A program made the translations under genes and the position numbers. Shown piece by piece: positions 9,126 through 55,763 of a stretch of DNA of 63,343 nucleotides (its first letter is position 1; every line of letters begins with the position of its first letter). Source of the stretch: a virus; IMG/VR virus record IMGVR_UViG_3300012927_000007, positions 1-63,343 of that record, one strand, 5' to 3'. Under the pieces are notes generated by a model, which did not search any database, had not been told where the DNA came from, and was given only the letters and a program-made list of their open reading frames with translations.

Positions 9126-9140
9126 GACTCACCTCAACGA

Positions 9141-9221
9141 CCGGCTGGTAGGACTTGCACCTACGCCTCGGGATCTGTTTTACAGCTAGCACCCGTACTC
9201 TAACTACTAAGCTACAGCCGG
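9141..9221 (-). tRNA. tRNA-like gene, long variable region (best fit Ser-GCT)
   Basis: A perfect 7 bp acceptor stem (CCGGCTG with CAGCCGG), TA at positions 8-9, a D-arm like GCTTAGTAGTTAGAG, and a perfect T-stem GTAGG/CCTAC around a 7-base loop TGCAAGT. The best anticodon arm is TACGG/CTGTA around GTGCTAG, giving anticodon GCT (serine). About 16 bases before the T-arm would form a class II-like variable arm, though it pairs poorly. The string CTGTAAA resembles a Tyr GTA loop, but its flanks do not pair. No encoded CCA. The D-stem is weak, so it may be degenerate. It lies in an ORF-free gap of the left arm. Confidence 0.6.
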
Positions 9222-10624: not shown

Positions 10625-11025
10625 AGTGTCTCCGGTTTCTCGCCGTCCAAGTCGCTGTGAATGTGGATATCAGGCGCGAAGCAGGCAACATTGGCGCAGC
10701 CCGCACCGTACCGCACGCCATCGGACAACGGGTACTCAGTGCCGCAGCCGTGACACTTGTACCAACGCAGTGTTGGGATGCCTGCAGCTTTACGCCGCGC
10801 ACGTTCCGCCGCGATCTCAGGTCCGGGGGCGTACATCAGCGTTTTGTCCTTTGGGTCAGCCCCAAAACCATACAGGTAAACGGGCTTTGGAAAGAGCCGG
10901 CGCCACACCCGTTTGTACCACGGCGGCCGGAACGGGCCTTGCTCGAACGTGCGCGCCCACTCGATGTCGGGGTAATCGCGGTAGGCTTCCTCGAATACCT
11001 GTTGCAGTTGGGAGCGCAATTTCAC
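10621..11025 (-). CDS. hypothetical protein with zinc-ribbon-like Cys pairs, 134 aa
   Basis: A basic aromatic patch (PPWYKRVWRRLFPKP) is followed by a helix and then KCHGCGTEYPL and CANVAC, two Cys pairs spaced like a small zinc ribbon (residues about 90-115). GTG 11025 overlaps the exonuclease stop (GTGA). A nucleic-acid or protein adaptor role is possible; no family is recognised. Confidence 0.55.
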   Translation of the reverse strand: MKLRSQLQQVFEEAYRDYPDIEWARTFEQGPFRPPWYKRVWRRLFPKPVYLYGFGADPKDKTLMYAPGPEIAAERARRKAAGIPTLRWYKCHGCGTEYPLSDGVRYGAGCANVACFAPDIHIHSDLDGEKPETL

Positions 11026-17341: not shown

Positions 17342-19195
17342 CTAGGAATTAGCGTTATCATCCGGTAAATGCCACCGAAATTTGGCTTTCCCCGCCTGAA
17401 TCGTCTTCACCCCGAGCTTTTCCCGCGCCCGGCGGATAGTACGATCGGTGATACCAGCTTCGTGATAGCGTTTCTCTACTTCGAATACACTCATGGAACC
17501 CTTCGTGAGCAGCTCTTTCAAAAACCGTTTAGCCTCTCCAAGTTTGGAAGTGCCATCACCGTTGCCTTCCGCTTCCGTGATGATGTGGTGCCCCGTGCCG
17601 CGCAGTTGTTTACCCCACACGATGCGCGCGATCTCGGTTTTCGGCTCCTCCTCGAAACCGTATTCGAAGCCGCCCTCACTCTTGGCGAAAGTCTTGACGC
17701 AGGTGAATACCATGTTGTTAGCGTGCTGGCCCTCACCCTCATCGATCGCAGCCGCCGCCAGTACAATGCGCGCCCGGTGCACCCACGCACCAGAGCCTAA
17801 CACCCGCTCCGCCGGGTCCTTACCCTTTGAGCCTTTGGTGAAGTGTTGTATGCCCAGCAGCACCGCGTTGTACTTAGCCGCCAGATCCGCCAGCGGGCTC
17901 AGTGAGCGGCGCACGTCGGAAGCTGAGTTGTTATCTTTCTGCACAACTACCACGATCGGGTCGATCACGATCATCGACACATCCCCGATCTCCTCGCAGG
18001 CGCGCTCCAGCGCTAACGCATCCCGCGCCGGATCGAATTCCCGCTTTTCGTTATCTTCCCGTACGCCTTTGACAAACCAGCACCGGGTCTGATCCGCCCC
18101 CGCGAAGCGTAGGCGCGGTTTGACGGTATCGCCTAAATCGTCCTCACCGGTCCAGATGATCACGTTACCCTTGGGGCATCTCGTACCATCGGGCCACTTG
18201 CCGCCCCGCGTAATAGTCGCGGCCAGCGACAGTGTTAGCGTTGATTTCATGACGCCACCACTGCCACTCAACAGATGGAATTTATTCCGGGCTAGAAACC
18301 CCTTCCACAACCAATCAACGGCCAGCTCCTCCTGTTCATCCGCACGAGTCAATACCACTTCGGTCGTTTCGGCTTTGCGTTTTGCGTCCTGCTCATCCGT
18401 CGTGAGGTGCCCTTTCTTGCGCGCGATATACAACACCTTTGCTTTGCCGTCCGTCTGTTGATAGGGCGGCTCGCAATGCTCCAGATCATATTTGAGCAGC
18501 GCCGCGCCGATCTCCTTGGTCGACATGCCGTTTTTACGGTAATAGTGCGCGCGGCTGCTCAAAGCATCGTTGCGGCCACCATCCCTGAATTTGCGCGTAT
18601 CCCGGCTGTCGGGCTCTTCGGGGGGCACGTGTCCGTTCAATTTCCTGGCGCCGCCCCGCGCCAGCTTTACGCACAACTCAACTACCCAGGACGGGGCGTT
18701 GCCGAACTCCCCGAGCGCCACCCCCCCGTGAGCCGGCCACCACACGATGTAGCCGCCCTCACCGCGCACATCCACGGTGTCCGAGCTTTTACTGATGCGG
18801 ATGCCAGAATCCGCGGGGTATTGGTACAACAAATGCTTGCCGCGCCGCGTCTGGTGCAGCCGGTACGCCCCGAGGCGCGCTTTGTGCTCCTGATACCAGT
18901 TGCCGCTCTTAGGGTCGCAGTCAATCACCAATAGGCCCGACGCTGAGCCTGTAGGAACCCCGATCAACGCCCCGGGGTAGCTCCGCCACCACTTGGCGAC
19001 TTGCGCCCCGTCTTGGGACGCCTCGTGGAAGCCGTGCTTGGTAAGTGGCCCCTTACTGACCGGATCGCACGGGAAAACGGGGTAGTCCGAAGCGACGGCC
19101 AAAGCGGCCCGAATGGCGGGCGTAACAACCCCGTCATTGACTTCCGAACTTGAATGTGATTGACGCCCTACCCGTTCATCGGATATTTTTCGCAT
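17342..19195 (-). CDS. Prim-Pol/AAA primase-helicase, 617 aa
   Basis: Fusion of an archaeo-eukaryotic primase-like Prim-Pol domain and a RepA/RecA-type helicase ATPase, the main candidate for origin unwinding and primer synthesis. N-terminal part (about 25-180): ALAVASDYPVFPCDPVSKGP, GALIGVPTGSASGLLVIDCD (D92 and D94 catalytic), a His-containing RRGKHLLYQYP, and VDVRGEGGYIVWWPA. A PriCT-like region follows (GGRNDALSSRAHYYRKNG, about 206-240). ATPase: Walker A GSGGVMKST 311-319, EDDLGD 351-356, Walker B VSMIVIDP about 406-413, QHFTKG about 446. The C-terminus is a small winged helix (TDRTIRRAREKLGVKT). It is the largest replication gene on the leftward side and borders the iteron region. Confidence 0.85.
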   Translation of the reverse strand: MRKISDERVGRQSHSSSEVNDGVVTPAIRAALAVASDYPVFPCDPVSKGPLTKHGFHEASQDGAQVAKWWRSYPGALIGVPTGSASGLLVIDCDPKSGNWYQEHKARLGAYRLHQTRRGKHLLYQYPADSGIRISKSSDTVDVRGEGGYIVWWPAHGGVALGEFGNAPSWVVELCVKLARGGARKLNGHVPPEEPDSRDTRKFRDGGRNDALSSRAHYYRKNGMSTKEIGAALLKYDLEHCEPPYQQTDGKAKVLYIARKKGHLTTDEQDAKRKAETTEVVLTRADEQEELAVDWLWKGFLARNKFHLLSGSGGVMKSTLTLSLAATITRGGKWPDGTRCPKGNVIIWTGEDDLGDTVKPRLRFAGADQTRCWFVKGVREDNEKREFDPARDALALERACEEIGDVSMIVIDPIVVVVQKDNNSASDVRRSLSPLADLAAKYNAVLLGIQHFTKGSKGKDPAERVLGSGAWVHRARIVLAAAAIDEGEGQHANNMVFTCVKTFAKSEGGFEYGFEEEPKTEIARIVWGKQLRGTGHHIITEAEGNGDGTSKLGEAKRFLKELLTKGSMSVFEVEKRYHEAGITDRTIRRAREKLGVKTIQAGKAKFRWHLPDDNANS

Positions 19196-19672: not shown

Positions 19673-19867
19673 CTACAACGGTCGCAACGTCTCGATCCGC
19701 CGTAACCCGAGCTTTTCCAAGGTCTTAGGCGTCGGGGTAGTCTTGGTGCCCCGCTGCATTCTCCACAGATAAGCGGGGTCCAGGTCGATCGCGCGGGCCG
19801 CCGCGCGCAGCCCCCCGTGGCGCTTCACCAATCGATCAATCTGCTTTTGCAAGTCGCTCTTGGGCAT
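19673..19867 (-). CDS. XRE-type transcriptional regulator, 64 aa
   Basis: A single helix-turn-helix domain: LQKQIDRLVKRHGGLRAAAR followed by AIDLDPAYLWRMQRGTK, the standard layout of Cro/CI-like (XRE) proteins. ATG 19867 has GGAG six bases upstream; the longer frame to 19918 would include the promoter. It lies at the divergence point of the two arms. Copies of the 9-mer [C/T]GTTGTC[C/T]A sit in or next to all four nearby promoters, including its own, so it may repress both arms and itself. Binding is inference. Confidence 0.75.
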   Translation of the reverse strand: MPKSDLQKQIDRLVKRHGGLRAAARAIDLDPAYLWRMQRGTKTTPTPKTLEKLGLRRIETLRPL

Positions 19868-19881
19868 AGTAGTCTCCGCAA

Positions 19882-19918
19882 CGTTGTCCAAAGATACCAC
19901 ACCGGGAGCGCGAAACAA
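19882..19918 (-). promoter_or_regulatory. putative leftward promoter with operator
   Basis: Minus strand TTGTTT (19918-19913), 16-base spacer, TATCTT (19896-19891). Directly downstream, at the expected transcription start, is TGGACAACG (19890-19882), the reverse of the 9-mer found in the rightward promoters. It would drive the XRE gene and the left arm. Confidence 0.55.
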
Positions 19919-19922
19919 GTGC

Positions 19923-19952
19923 TTGACAGCCGTTGTCTAGCTGGGCTACAGT
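19923..19952 (+). promoter_or_regulatory. putative rightward promoter P1 with operator
   Basis: TTGACA (19923-19928), 18-base spacer, TACAGT (19947-19952). The spacer carries CGTTGTCTA (19931-19939). The expected start site, about seven bases after the -10, falls on or near the ATG at 19959, so the first rightward mRNA may be leaderless. Confidence 0.65.
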
Positions 19953-19958
19953 AGCGAC

Positions 19959-20186
19959 ATGTATACCTTACACATCACTCGACGCGGTTCCCCCACGACC
20001 CGCACCAACTACCCCACCCCCGATGCGGCAATGGCCGCTTACGACAGCCAGGAACTCGACGGGGACGCCGTCGTTCGCGAGGGGTACACCTCGGACGGTA
20101 CCCATTGGGTCGTGGCGGGGCACGCTTATGGACGGGTAATCGCGACGCGCGACGCCACCACCAACGAAAAATGGCTGCGGGAATAG
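19959..20186 (+). CDS. first rightward gene, hypothetical, 75 aa
   Basis: A small protein with a beta-rich start (YTLHITRRGSPTTRTNYPT), a helix (DAAMAAYDSQEL) and HWVVAGHAYGRVIATRD. No family recognised, though the N-terminus resembles small proteins that read a value and a residue-count field. No Shine-Dalgarno sequence precedes ATG 19959, and promoter P1 ends seven bases before it, which suggests leaderless translation. As the first gene after the divergence point it is probably expressed at once on infection. Confidence 0.65.
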   Translation: MYTLHITRRGSPTTRTNYPTPDAAMAAYDSQELDGDAVVREGYTSDGTHWVVAGHAYGRVIATRDATTNEKWLRE

Positions 20187-20187
20187 C

Positions 20188-20216
20188 TTGACTTTGTTGT
20201 CCAGACGGTCTACAAG
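20188..20216 (+). promoter_or_regulatory. putative rightward promoter P2 with operator
   Basis: TTGACT (20188-20193), 17-base spacer, TACAAG (20211-20216). The spacer contains TGTTGTCCA (20195-20203). It lies just after the first rightward gene and before a well-signalled ATG at 20245, leaving a short leader. Confidence 0.55.
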
Positions 20217-20244
20217 TACACCCATCGACAACGCAGGAGAGCAT

Positions 20245-20511
20245 ATGACCACTCACTACACCGCCGCCGGCAAATTCATCGTTCTGGTGCATTCAGACGG
20301 CGACGAGCGCAAAGCCGCCCAGTGTGGTTCGATTGCGGAAGCCGTGCAGGCTGCGAAGCTGTTGAACGACGCCAAACACTTGAACGACGTAAAGCGCCGG
20401 TACACCGACGCGGCCCGAAAAATCGCGAAGGCAGAAGCCCTCCCGGGTTTTCGCTGGACTCCGGACGAACCGACCACGTCAGCAGCTGTTGACACCGTAG
20501 ACAACGCCTGA
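20245..20511 (+). CDS. hypothetical early protein, 88 aa
   Basis: A beta start (AGKFIVLVHSDGDERKAAQ) followed by two helices (SIAEAVQAAKLLNDAKHLND, YTDAARKIAKAE). ATG 20245 has AGGAGA four bases upstream; the longer frame from 20188 would include promoter P2. Unknown function. Small alpha/beta proteins in this position are often host-takeover factors, but nothing specific is visible. Confidence 0.6.
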   Translation: MTTHYTAAGKFIVLVHSDGDERKAAQCGSIAEAVQAAKLLNDAKHLNDVKRRYTDAARKIAKAEALPGFRWTPDEPTTSAAVDTVDNA

Positions 20512-20517
20512 TAGACT
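20489..20517 (+). promoter_or_regulatory. putative rightward promoter P3 with inverted operator
   Basis: TTGACA (20489-20494), 17-base spacer, TAGACT (20512-20517). The spacer carries TAGACAACG (20498-20506), the same 9-mer as in P1 but inverted. It overlaps the end of the 88 aa gene and precedes the gene at 20557. Confidence 0.55.
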
Positions 20518-20556: not shown

Positions 20557-20694
20557 ATGAGCCACGCAAACCAGTATTGGGCAAATAAGCTCCCGGAACA
20601 TCTGCGCCCGCAGTTCTGGGCGGAAGTCGACTTTGGTCACAACATGAGCGGGGAAACTGCTTACAACTACATCACAAAAGGTCGACGCTGCTAA
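20557..20694 (+). CDS. small early protein, 45 aa
   Basis: ATG 20557 has AGGAG six bases upstream. The product is compact and normal in composition (QYWANKLPEHLRPQFWAEVD, then NMSGETAYNYITKGRRC). It lies directly behind promoter P3. Function unknown. Confidence 0.6.
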   Translation: MSHANQYWANKLPEHLRPQFWAEVDFGHNMSGETAYNYITKGRRC

Positions 20695-20714
20695 ACCGGT
20701 TCTGTAGTCAACTC

Positions 20715-20742
20715 GATTGCGCCTGTACCAACGGACGCAATC
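20715..20742 (+). other. inverted repeat in leader of next gene
   Basis: GATTGCG and CGCAATC form a perfect 7 bp stem (20715-20721 with 20736-20742), extendable by CC/GG with one bulge. A second small stem, TGCC/GGCA, follows. The 106-base gap holds no gene. No U-run follows, so a structured leader is likelier than a terminator. Confidence 0.35.
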
Positions 20743-20800
20743 AGATGCCAACAGGCACCAGCGACGCCCCCGCGATGTGGGCGCCCCAAAGGCGACGACA

Positions 20801-21064
20801 ATGTACGCAGTACGTGTGATCAACCAAGTAGGGCTGGAAGCGGCAAATTACGGCACCGTCTATGGGGCATGTCCCGAGGCGATGCACGACAAGGGCGTTG
20901 CCGAAGACTGGGCCAAAGTGCTCAACAATTCTGGCAACTGGCCGAAGGGCAACCCCGGTTACGAGGTCGTCGAGCTGGAAACTGACCCCACGCCCTGGTG
21001 CTCAGGCTGCGGCGCGATGAAGCAATCGAATTGTCACTGCGGCCCCATTGCCGCGAACGAATAA
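20801..21064 (+). CDS. hypothetical protein with C-terminal Cys cluster, 87 aa
   Basis: Starts YAVRVINQVGLEAANYGTVY with a mixed alpha/beta core and ends with CSGCGAMKQSNCHCGP, four Cys and a His that likely hold zinc. ATG 20801 has AAAGGCG upstream; the in-frame start at 20717 would include the structured leader. Function unknown. Confidence 0.6.
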   Translation: MYAVRVINQVGLEAANYGTVYGACPEAMHDKGVAEDWAKVLNNSGNWPKGNPGYEVVELETDPTPWCSGCGAMKQSNCHCGPIAANE

Positions 21065-21450: not shown

Positions 21451-22143
21451 ATGGCCGTTAAAAAAGTACTGAAGAAAGAAGCCGCCCCGAGCAGCGTGAG
21501 CCTCGTCGTTCCGCAGGCGGACCCCGAGTTGGCCAGATCCGCTAAGCGGATGCTGTCCCAAGCTCAGGAACTGTTCGTTGGGAGTGCACAGGAGTATGAG
21601 GATGCCGCCGTTGTGCTGCAGAATCTCACCACGCGCGAGAAAGAGATCGAGGCCCAGAAGGCGAAACTGTGGGACCCACTCGCGGTGCTGACCAAGAACG
21701 TGCAGGCGCTCTTCAATCCGCCACTGAAAGTGTTGGACCAAGCTAAGAAGCTGGTCAGCGGGAAAATGGGCGTCTATGCCCTGGAACAACGCAACATCGC
21801 ACTGGCCGCACAACAGCGCGCCGACGACGAGGCAGAAGAAGCCCGTCAGAAGCTCCTCGCGAAAGCCGAGAGAGCAGCGGACGACGGCAACCACGCCCGC
21901 GCCGAGGTGTTGGAGGCGCGCGCGGACAGCGTCCAGGCCCCCACGATCGAAATCGACATCCCCAAGGTGCACGGTATTCAACTGCGCGAGCGCTGGCTGT
22001 TCGAGGTGACCGACCCGGAGGAGGTGCCACGGGAGTTTCTCATGGTCGACGAGCGCTTGATTCGCGCCGAAGTCAACGCCAAGGAGAGCCTCGCGAAGAT
22101 TCCCGGCGTGCATATCTGGTCCACGTTGAAACCGCAGGGGTAA
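21451..22143 (+). CDS. conserved phage coiled-coil protein, 230 aa
   Basis: Central long coiled coil (about 30-165), with repeated AEEARQKLLAKAERAADDG-type stretches, followed by a conserved-looking C-terminal domain: WLFEVTDPEEVPREFLMVDE and KIPGVHIWSTLKPQG. That pattern (W-x-F-E-V-T-D-P-x-x-V-P-R-x-y and a closing I-P-G-V/I) is common in phage proteins next to recombination genes, where they may serve as nuclease or annealase partners. The precise function is not known to me. Confidence 0.65.
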   Translation: MAVKKVLKKEAAPSSVSLVVPQADPELARSAKRMLSQAQELFVGSAQEYEDAAVVLQNLTTREKEIEAQKAKLWDPLAVLTKNVQALFNPPLKVLDQAKKLVSGKMGVYALEQRNIALAAQQRADDEAEEARQKLLAKAERAADDGNHARAEVLEARADSVQAPTIEIDIPKVHGIQLRERWLFEVTDPEEVPREFLMVDERLIRAEVNAKESLAKIPGVHIWSTLKPQG

Positions 22144-24148: not shown

Positions 24149-24331
24149 ATGTTGATCTTGACGAGAAGGGTCGGAGAAACCGTGATGATTGGGGACAACG
24201 TCACCATCACAGTGTTAGGGGTCAAGGGGAATCAAGTGCGTGTGGGCATCAACGCGCCCAAGGAAATCGCGGTGCACCGTGAAGAGATCTACGATCGCAT
24301 CAAGCGCGAAAAGATTGGGACCCCTGCATGA
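24149..24331 (+). CDS. csrA: CsrA/RsmA carbon storage regulator, 60 aa
   Basis: Almost identical in layout to bacterial Csr[21 protein letters not shown], then [20 protein letters not shown] and [14 protein letters not shown], including L4, R6 and the RNA-binding R44 region. CsrA dimers bind GGA motifs near ribosome sites and block or protect host mRNAs, so a phage copy could redirect host metabolism or time phage translation. Full length with no damage; GGAG seven bases upstream. The leader itself has GGA triplets (GAGGAAG and AAGGAC), which would allow self-control; that is inference. It is coupled (ATGA) to the next gene. Confidence 0.95.
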
Positions 24332-25209
24332 CCGAAGTAGGACGCCGCCCGACGTTGTACGAGCTCCTACTCGCGCTCCACGCGATCGAGAGCGTCGAGG
24401 CGGATATCGCAGCACACGACCCGGAAGCCAAAACGTTCCGGGTCGTGCTGACCTTCACCCGCGCGCAGTGTCCCAACGATTGGATCGAAGGGAAACCCAA
24501 GCCCTCGTGGATGTTCGAGCAACTCACGGAGGAGTTGGCCGCGTGGCTGCAGCAGCGCAATCGTGAGGAGCAGTGGGTCTCGAAAGAGGAGCAGATGGGC
24601 TCCTCCATCGACACCCTCATGGCGCACTATACGGAAGAGTTAAAGAAAGTCGTCAAAGCCTCCCCGCAAAACATGTTGACTCGAATGCAGAAACGCATCT
24701 TCGAGGACACCATCCTGAGACTCAAGGAATTGAAGGAGCGTCGCGCGGCGGGCGGGGTATACTCCCAGACCGAGAGCCGTCGTGAGAAAGCACGCAAGCA
24801 ATGGGAAGATGACGAGTACGAGGCGCCGAAGCGTGAAGAGGCGCAACGTCGCCAACAACGAAGCAATCCATATGATGGCGGCTTCCAATATGCCGGTTTT
24901 GACGACCTAGACCCTGAAATGGCACGGCAGGCGCGCGAGGCTTTCAGCAAACTTTTTAACGATAATGCGTACCGCTGGGGGCCGAATCATGGAACAGCCA
25001 CCCCACCGCCAAAGTCAAACAACAAACAGCCGTGGCACGTGACCCTGGGGGTGCCCATTAGCGCCACCAAGGAGGAGATTACGAAAGCGTACCGTAAACT
25101 GGTCGCGAAGTACCAGCCGCGCACCAGCGCCGATGCGGAAGATAAAGAGCGTCATGCCAAAATGACAGAAATCAACACCGCACGCGATGAAGGGTTAGGT
25201 GGGTTATGA
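24328..25209 (+). CDS. J-domain-like protein with altered HPD motif, 293 aa
   Basis: The C-terminal 60 residues follow a J domain: [20 protein letters not shown], then [19 protein letters not shown] and a closing helix. The HPD tripeptide that stimulates DnaK reads QPR here, so ordinary Hsp70 activation is doubtful. N-terminal part (1-190) is helical and charged with [20 protein letters not shown]-type coiled coil, preceded by a short beta region ([13 protein letters not shown]). A stretch QRSNPYDGG at about 180-188 matches the TerL C-terminus. ATG 24328 overlaps the csrA stop. Function may be a chaperone adaptor or a decoy. Confidence 0.7.
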
Positions 25210-54198: not shown

Positions 54199-55290
54199 TT
54201 ACCGTGTGTAAGCTCGGATGTTAGGGCGCATCATGACGGGAGACGAGTCTGTTTCAGACGCCCACCCTTCCGCCCAGCGGTCCTTGTCTTCTTGCAGAAG
54301 AGCCGCTTTATCCGTATCGCTCATTCCCTTGGCGATCTCGGGGATCATGAACATCAACTCTTTGGCAGTGCGGGTGAGGATCGCGAGAAACCAGCGCTGA
54401 GGCACTTCAATCGTCTGCGTCAGCGTCCCCACATCCTGCACGTAGCGCTGCACGTACAATACGATCTGGGAGAACGTGAACTGCAACTGCGGTGAAGGCC
54501 ACAACGTCAGAGTCGGTTGCGGGATGCTTTTGTTGTACCAAAACTCAAGCGGCCGCCCCTGGAACCACTTGTTAGGGTAGTTTGAATAATTATCCCGGTT
54601 GATCTTCGCGATGGGGATTTCCTGTGGAGCCGCCCCCGTCACGAACTCCGTCACGTTGAGTGTCGTACCCCCAGAAGCCTGCAGCCGTACGTACAGAACG
54701 CCAGCTTCGGGGATGCCCTGCACATCTATCCACTGCCATTGACCGGTGATCGCAGCCAGCGCGGTGTTGGTGTAGATCGGCGTGAAAGTGATTCCGTCCG
54801 TGGAGGTCTGAATAGCGACGCTCCATGTTCCCGTCGCGTTGGGTAGAATACCAAAGACGACCGGTTGCCCCGCCCCCGGGAATTGCACGGTGAGCGCGCC
54901 GTTGGGTGCAGTCTGCGTGCACGCGGTCGCTAGGTTATTGTCGAACGCGTTAGCCGCGACGCCCCCCGCTGAAGAGGTGTAGATGATGCCCGGCGCGGGA
55001 AGCTGTAACTGCGTGATGTTGCGCAGGTTGGCGTTGAGAACATCCACCGTGCCCAGCGGCGCGAGCACATCCTGGACCGCATCGTAGATCGGCAGGACGA
55101 CTTTCTGGACCGCCCAGAGCGCGACGCCTTTGGAGGCGAGCGTCGACAGCGCGAGGTACAACAGATCCTGCGCAATCGCGATGTATTCGGGGGTGATCTT
55201 CTGTGGAGCGAGCTGACTCCGGCCGAAAGCCCGATCTATTAATTTTCCAGTGTTGAATACAGTAGTCGACACCGTCCCGGAGGTAGTCAT
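54199..55290 (-). CDS. virion structural protein with discoidin-like domain, 363 aa
   Basis: Helical start (IAIAQDLLYLALSTLASKGV, ALWAVQKVVLPIYDAVQDVL), then a region like an F5/8 type C (discoidin) sandwich: ANAFDNNLATACTQTAPNGA, TWSVAIQTSTDGITF, YVRLQASGGTTLNVTEFV. The C-terminal part is NRDNYSNYPNKWFQGRPLEF, WPSPQLQFTF, YVQRYVQDVGTLTQTIEVPQ and RWFLAILTRTAKELMF, known from phage tail-region proteins. ATG 55290 overlaps the HNH stop (ATGA). Possibly a baseplate-like or connector protein. Confidence 0.65.
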   Translation of the reverse strand: MTTSGTVSTTVFNTGKLIDRAFGRSQLAPQKITPEYIAIAQDLLYLALSTLASKGVALWAVQKVVLPIYDAVQDVLAPLGTVDVLNANLRNITQLQLPAPGIIYTSSAGGVAANAFDNNLATACTQTAPNGALTVQFPGAGQPVVFGILPNATGTWSVAIQTSTDGITFTPIYTNTALAAITGQWQWIDVQGIPEAGVLYVRLQASGGTTLNVTEFVTGAAPQEIPIAKINRDNYSNYPNKWFQGRPLEFWYNKSIPQPTLTLWPSPQLQFTFSQIVLYVQRYVQDVGTLTQTIEVPQRWFLAILTRTAKELMFMIPEIAKGMSDTDKAALLQEDKDRWAEGWASETDSSPVMMRPNIRAYTR

Positions 55291-55763
55291 ACAGACACAT
55301 GCCGCCAAGTTTTACGACGCAGTACGTCAGAAATCCCCTGTTGCGATATACCGAATTGCTGGCCAATAGCCTTCTGCGTCCACCCGTTTTGGTGGAGCAT
55401 AAAGATATCAACAATCCGCTCCTCTACTAAGACTGCGCTGCCTTGGTCACTACCACGCGCAGGAGTAAAGCGACCCTTTCGCAACATGTCGTCTGTATTG
55501 TCTTGAAAAGTACCTAAGAACAAGTGCTTAGGGTTAACACACGCACGATTGTCACAGCGGTGCAATACGCACTTGGCTGGTGGGATGGGGCCTTTGAACA
55601 ACTGCCAAGCGATTCGGTGCGCTAGGTGCTGAAGCCACTTGCCCTCACGTTTCACCCCAAAAGCCCCGTAGCCCGGCCCCCGCGTAGCGCCTACCCAAAG
55701 CCAGCATGTGGGGGTCTTCCGCACTTTGGAAAGGAACCGAGGTTTGATGCCCGAGGTGGCCAA
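55287..55763 (-). CDS. HNH homing endonuclease, 158 aa
   Basis: HNH_3 core CWLWVGATRGPGYGAFGVKR, LAHRIAWQLFKGPIPPAKCV, HRCDNRACVNPKHLFLGTFQ and DNTDDMLRKGR, plus a C-terminal HTH (HQNGWTQKAIGQQFGIS). Closely related in layout to the HNH at 34082..34534. TTG 55763 has AAGGAG eight bases upstream, but that signal lies in a hairpin (55767-55791). Overlaps the next gene (ATGA). It is inserted in the head/tail structural operon. Confidence 0.9.
   Translation of the reverse strand: MATSGIKPRFLSKVRKTPTCWLWVGATRGPGYGAFGVKREGKWLQHLAHRIAWQLFKGPIPPAKCVLHRCDNRACVNPKHLFLGTFQDNTDDMLRKGRFTPARGSDQGSAVLVEERIVDIFMLHQNGWTQKAIGQQFGISQQGISDVLRRKTWRHVSV

Follow-up and report, generated by a model that had tools for sequence, protein, structure and literature searches.

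The Cro proteins of lambda, 434, and P22 are about 60-70 aa long, consist of a helix-turn-helix (HTH) domain only, and are encoded by the first gene of an early operon leading to replication genes. They use symmetric operators of the 17-18 bp class over divergent early promoters and repress their own synthesis. Cluster A mycobacteriophages (L5, Bxb1, and TipsytheTRex) have one repressor and no Cro/CI pair, with sites at early promoters, and related phages have distinct operator specificities (PMC6550527). The Cluster A repressor is a monomer with two DNA-binding domains and recognizes 13-14 bp sites that lack dyad symmetry and number 20-30 genome-wide (PMC6550527, PMC9283540).

The locus described here encodes a 64-aa protein that resembles lambda Cro in size, gene position, and operator type, and that would likewise be autorepressing; as judged from sequence, its palindromic operators lie on divergent early promoters, including its own. 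Unlike the Cro systems, with their three-part OR and OL, there is one operator per promoter, extra operators occur at P2 and P3, and we found neither a CI-like partner sharing the operators nor an integrase. The 64-aa sequence is not detectably related to lambda Cro, and the only match to any Cro was to Pfl 6 Cro (E 0.73). Given that no CI partner was detected, that the operators are single, and that sequence kinship is not recognizable, we file the protein under small autoregulating phage HTH repressors rather than in the Cro family. As in Cluster A, one repressor appears to act at early-promoter sites and operator specificities are split among relatives; unlike Cluster A, there are four 18-bp palindromic sites within 0.62 kb and the protein is one short domain. 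Structural modeling also suggests a likeness to the restriction-modification controllers C.Esp1396I and C.AhdI, small stand-alone XRE-fold dimers that act on their own promoter and are among the fold matches, but no restriction-modification genes lie beside the 64-aa gene.

Two other phages have comparable genes. In phage ctpbd312 (MW202545.1), a virion relative, a 66-aa HTH-like protein (10735-10935) is also the first leftward gene product at a divergent junction, but the protein appears unrelated and the class A palindrome described below is absent there, with one stray match elsewhere. The 'transcriptional repressor' of Plectonema phage Lbo240-yong2 (OP828577.1) is 41% identical over 56 residues (E 8e-5), but its gene has 121 codons and lies in a one-direction operon, and a 12-kb stretch contains no class A palindrome.

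The divergent junction and its first leftward gene

The window, the stretch of DNA analyzed, comprises an entire IMG/VR virus record (63,343 bp), in which no end repeats were found. By match, its products include a portal protein, large and small terminase subunits, DNA polymerase, endolysin, a Prim-Pol/AAA_25 primase-helicase, additional helicases, a Sak4-like protein, and CsrA. Judged by portal, the named phages closest to it are Caulobacter phages RW, KcrB, RLK, and GB2A (42% identity), and a DNA similarity search against named phages gave no match to the window. Leftward genes run from 19,867 and rightward genes from 19,959, with the following features at the junction:

17342-19195, minus strand: 617-aa Prim-Pol/AAA_25 primase-helicase (PF09250 4.9e-24, PF13481 5.5e-33), presumed to be in the same operon as the 64-aa gene
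19673-19867, minus strand: 64-aa HTH protein (Cro/CI-type fold), known from translation and homologs in six relatives; proposed autorepressor
19959-20186, plus strand: 75-aa ORF after P1, with its ATG at the predicted start site
20245-20511, plus strand: 88-aa ORF after P2, with an AGGAG ribosome-binding site and the P3 operator within its 3' end
20557-20694, plus strand: 45-aa ORF after P3, with an AGGAG ribosome-binding site

The small HTH gene is thus the first leftward gene, as an earlier, sequence-only reading of this DNA had it. About 480 bp separate this gene from the start of the primase-helicase downstream, so a transcript common to the two is an assumption; their synteny is retained in three relatives (G001, G004, and G012). 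On the other side, the P1 transcript may be leaderless, given that the ATG of the 75-aa ORF coincides with the predicted start site: the -10 hexamer ends six bases upstream of this ATG (19947-19961), which would leave the transcript leaderless or nearly so. No homolog of the 75-aa ORF was found in the three relatives searched. Farther along the rightward early arm are a 60-aa CsrA homolog (24149-24331; Pfam CsrA 4.6e-26), a phage-borne post-transcriptional regulator, and, immediately after csrA, a 293-aa protein with a C-terminal DnaJ domain (24328-25209). Rfam identifies a tRNA gene at 9140-9221 on the minus strand (48 bits).

The product of the first leftward gene (MPKSDLQKQIDRLVKRHGGLRAAARAIDLDPAYLWRMQRGTKTTPTPKTLEKLGLRRIETLRPL) is essentially one HTH domain, as in Cro-type repressors. 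An AF2 model (pLDDT 79) has four helices (5-17, 20-26, 31-39, and 47-52) and a low-confidence tail. It appears similar in fold to XRE DNA-binding domains, with matches to SinR (TM 0.63-0.66), DdrO (0.60), the CapH N-domain (0.61), and also HipB, with Foldseek probabilities of 0.99-1.00 and E-values of at least 0.04; no structural match had E < 0.001. In Pfam, the protein scores 13.9 bits against HTH_3 (PF01381), for which the cut-off is 23, and HTH_31 is below its cut-off too, while five of seven homologs match HTH_3 at E < 0.1 (best 0.0048). A single-protein scan recovered no homologs and an alignment-based scan recovered three, two of which are apparently one locus. We found no description of this protein family in the literature. 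An HTH_3 match at 55311-55391 was set aside, as it is part of an HNH_3 homing-type endonuclease with an HTH tail (55287-55763, minus strand) that lies amid structural genes and gives the record its only HTH_3 match.

Predicted operators at the four promoters

The sequence-only reading proposed that four promoters share one 9-mer. YGTTGTCYA matches the window at exactly the four sites it named (19882-19890, 19931-19939, and 20195-20203 on the plus strand and 20498-20506 on the minus strand), and a search of the rest of the genome, which it had suggested as a check, returned no further copy. The refuting case that it had named, a 9-mer just as frequent off the promoters, is therefore not what the sequence shows. 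Shuffled sequence is expected to give 1.67 matches, and four are reached in 10 of 100 shuffles, so the total by itself says little. All four copies lie within 625 bp; the largest such cluster in 400 Markov-1 sequences is two.

The 9-mer had been taken for the operator itself. The real unit is larger: each 9-mer is mostly one arm, with a flank, of an 18-bp imperfect palindrome. The operators of P1-P3 have the form GTWGNC-N6-GNCWAC, and that of the leftward promoter, PL, is GTTGTCCAAAGATACCAC:

19891-19918, minus strand: predicted promoter PL; -35 TTGTTT (19918-19913), 16-bp spacer, -10 TATCTT (19896-19891), preceded by TGG (extended -10)
19923-19952, plus strand: promoter P1, TTGACA-18-TACAGT
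20188-20216, plus strand: promoter P2, TTGACT-17-TACAAG
20489-20517, plus strand: promoter P3, TTGACA-17-TAGACT
19883-19900, plus strand: PL operator GTTGTCCAAAGATACCAC, presumably weaker, with an asymmetric arm; -16 to +1 of the leftward promoter
19932-19949, plus strand: P1 operator GTTGTCTAGCTGGGCTAC; -27 to -10
20196-20213, plus strand: P2 operator GTTGTCCAGACGGTCTAC; -27 to -10
20488-20505, plus strand: P3 operator GTTGACACCGTAGACAAC; -36 to -19

The promoters are as had been described, with good consensus matches: all four predictions score at least 15, compared with a background 95th percentile of 13.7. The exact palindrome occurs three times in the window, every time at one of P1-P3 (0.26 expected; none of 100 shuffles reaches three). 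With two mismatches allowed it becomes uninformative (122 matches versus 86 expected). Since the 9-mer was chosen after the fact, the independent test that counts is a matrix built from the relatives only, and this ranks P1, P3, and P2 first to third in the whole 63-kb window. The same matrix gives PL 6.6 bits versus 18-22 for P1-P3. At PL the left arm is kept and the right arm is TACCAC; read leftward, the latter contains TGGTA, part of the extended -10 (TGGTATCTT), and this double duty may explain its departure from consensus.

Relative to the estimated start sites, the operators occupy few registers. Window P1 and P2, and P1 and P2 of G004, are at -27 to -10. Window P3, P1-P3 of G001, P1 and P2 of G014, and P1 of G005 and G012 are at -36 to -19, with G015 within one base. 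PL is at -16 to +1 in the window, G004, G001, and G014. All of these operators overlap core promoter elements, as expected of sites for a repressor. The sites described below as class B lie around the start site or start codon at PL, where promoters are less clear; the class B PL promoters and that of G001 are poor sigma-70 matches. An asymmetric, stoperator-like reading of the sites was dropped, given a second arm at fixed spacing in every site and no site outside the region. Replication iterons were also dropped, as the sites are 49-292 bp apart and each is on a promoter.

Conservation and change among related contigs

In six related viral contigs we identified the same protein, 64-67 aa long, together with palindromes at both divergent promoters. 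A primase-helicase search yielded G001 (64.5 kb) and G004 (60.7 kb), and terminase scans together with a scan for an RNA element yielded G005, G012, G014, and G015. An exonuclease-like protein (21451-22143) used as bait led to distant phages lacking the repressor, in which the two palindrome matches look stray.

In G001 and G004 the small protein is in the same place and is 43% and 54% identical, respectively (local alignments). G001 has three copies of the exact palindrome of window P1-P3, here termed class A, and G004 has two, all of them beside the homologous gene and none elsewhere. At the background rate of 0.86 per 63 kb (from 443 kb of control loci), the Poisson P is about 3e-6 for G001 and 1e-4 for G004. 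Cluster P values are about 1e-4 to 1e-7 each, that of the window not being independent of the motif choice. The PL operators align in three genomes: GTTGTCCAAAGATACCAC in the window, GTTGTCCCAGCGTACCAC in G004, and GTAGCCAAATCCTGCCAC in G001. In G014, P1 and P2 have GTTGAC-N6-GACCAC, the only two matches to GTNGNC-N6-GNCNAC in its 62 kb, and the PL operator is GTGGTCAAAAGCTACCAC.

The other relatives have another operator. In G005 and G012 we found no class A site; GTTKC-N8-GMAAC (class B) occurs there only at the two divergent promoters, and it is absent from G000, G001, and G004. G015 is also class B, with a degenerate PL site. The three class B proteins form a separate branch of the protein tree (98/98), matching the operator classes. 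In all three, the recognition helix (xRxYLWxLR) has Arg at two positions that are never Arg in class A proteins. Because the seven proteins share one tree, the class change counts as a single concordant event rather than many. The phages of these classes have terminases 77-84% identical to that of the window. That protein and operator change together is the best evidence that the 64-aa protein binds these sites. Conservation and covariation across the six relatives argue strongly for three proposals of the sequence-only reading, that the operator is shared, that the HTH protein is its likely binder, and that both arms are controlled. G004 and G005 encode in their rightward arm a small protein with a LuxR-type HTH (L048:2352-2519; L070:3129-3395), which may be a second regulator in these relatives; tblastn gave no match to it in the window.

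A conserved structured RNA element with no match in Rfam separates the P3 gene from the ORF that follows. G005 and G012 have similar copies, and G001 has a diverged one (E about 1e-5). Its copies are as follows:

20689-20805, plus strand of the window
L070:1410-1531
L073:2145-2258
L005:2015-1899, minus strand

The element, which precedes an early ORF, consists of a long irregular stem, then ACCARCGACGCC, then a short hairpin. Nine of 26 pairs have changed on both sides and still pair, versus 2.8 in shuffles, a generous count because the alignment had been fitted to the model and one of its members is a match of this element on the reverse strand. It is a candidate cis-acting RNA or attenuator in the repressor-controlled arm.

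Proposed mode of repression and alternatives

That the 64-aa protein binds these palindromes is, from the comparisons above, highly likely. We put at roughly 70% the fuller model, in which it is a Cro-like repressor of both arms during lytic growth. The protein, a single-domain HTH repressor, would bind as a dimer to the 18-bp palindromes at PL, P1, P2, and P3, each of which lies on promoter elements (in the spacer between the two hexamers, on the -35 and spacer, or on the -10 and start site), and once bound would block RNA polymerase. Host polymerase would fire all four promoters early after infection. The leftward transcript would carry the repressor gene and then the primase-helicase, and the rightward transcripts would begin with small early genes and continue into the block for replication and recombination. 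Accumulating repressor would shut P1-P3 and then its own PL, via the less symmetric and presumably weaker site. The outcome would be a pulse of early expression, with the repressor held at a set level.

The locus is in all likelihood a genuine, if rather ordinary, off-switch for early genes. The "compact switch" of the sequence-only reading survives in that one regulator appears to serve both arms, but a two-state device would need a second repressor, and an HTH_3 search of three records plus ORF scans found no CI-like gene, although small or divergent ones could escape. With neither a CI-like partner nor an integrase found, a single autorepressor is probably the better model. The arrangement had also been called unusual for a phage without integrase; three records agree on the absence, but with at least seven records having the system, and with ctpbd312 as a relative that has a different small HTH gene at this divergent position, "unusual" is hard to sustain.

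The same protein and operators could instead provide immunity, silencing both arms in an integrase-less temperate phage maintained as a plasmid or in pseudolysogeny. The control of both arms by one repressor would suit such a life, as would the two operator classes among phages with such similar terminases, a pattern like that of immunity repressors (PMC6550527). We nevertheless consider it unlikely, because searches found no integrase or serine recombinase (PF00589, PF00239) in G000, G001, and G004, records that may be incomplete, no partition gene in a scan of 50 more ORFs of the window, and no copy of the protein in bacterial (host) genomes. The gene is also placed ahead of the primase-helicase, under a promoter that its product would shut, and no maintenance promoter was seen.

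Palindromes alone cannot name their binder, and the window has a weak match to another phage HTH family (phrog_686; parent ORF not identified among ten ORFs), so the operators could belong to a different phage or host regulator, with the 64-aa gene only a neighbor. This is very improbable given that operators and recognition helix, invariably adjacent, switch class in concert across seven genomes, and that the closest named virion relative, Caulobacter phage RW, lacks in the stretch 1-36000 both a homologous gene at the first leftward position and the class A palindrome. The fixed place of the motif between -35 and -10 at P1 and P2 of the window and G004 might suggest a promoter element for a sigma factor or polymerase, but the motif is palindromic, has other registers elsewhere and the opposite sense at PL, and accompanies ordinary -35 and -10 hexamers, which makes that idea barely credible. 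A protein that both represses and activates, for example by aiding P2 or P3 from a flanking site, would fit the three registers, one of which (-36 to -19) touches the -35. We regard this as a slim prospect, as every site overlaps core promoter elements, where binding normally represses, and no upstream site of the activator type was seen.

If the Cro-like model holds, one 64-aa protein could shut both early arms of such a phage. For a repressor family not described before, in phages of ~60 kb that only metagenomes have yielded, the comparisons predict an operator code whose two specificity classes are swappable and testable. They also illustrate how comparing relatives can reveal a dyad behind what looks like an asymmetric motif. 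More tentatively, this may be an early control system with one protein, no CI, and no integrase that has diverged, in recognition helix and operators alike, into two classes probably blind to each other. If so, operator specificity would diversify even without lysogeny, for example under competition among co-infecting phages.
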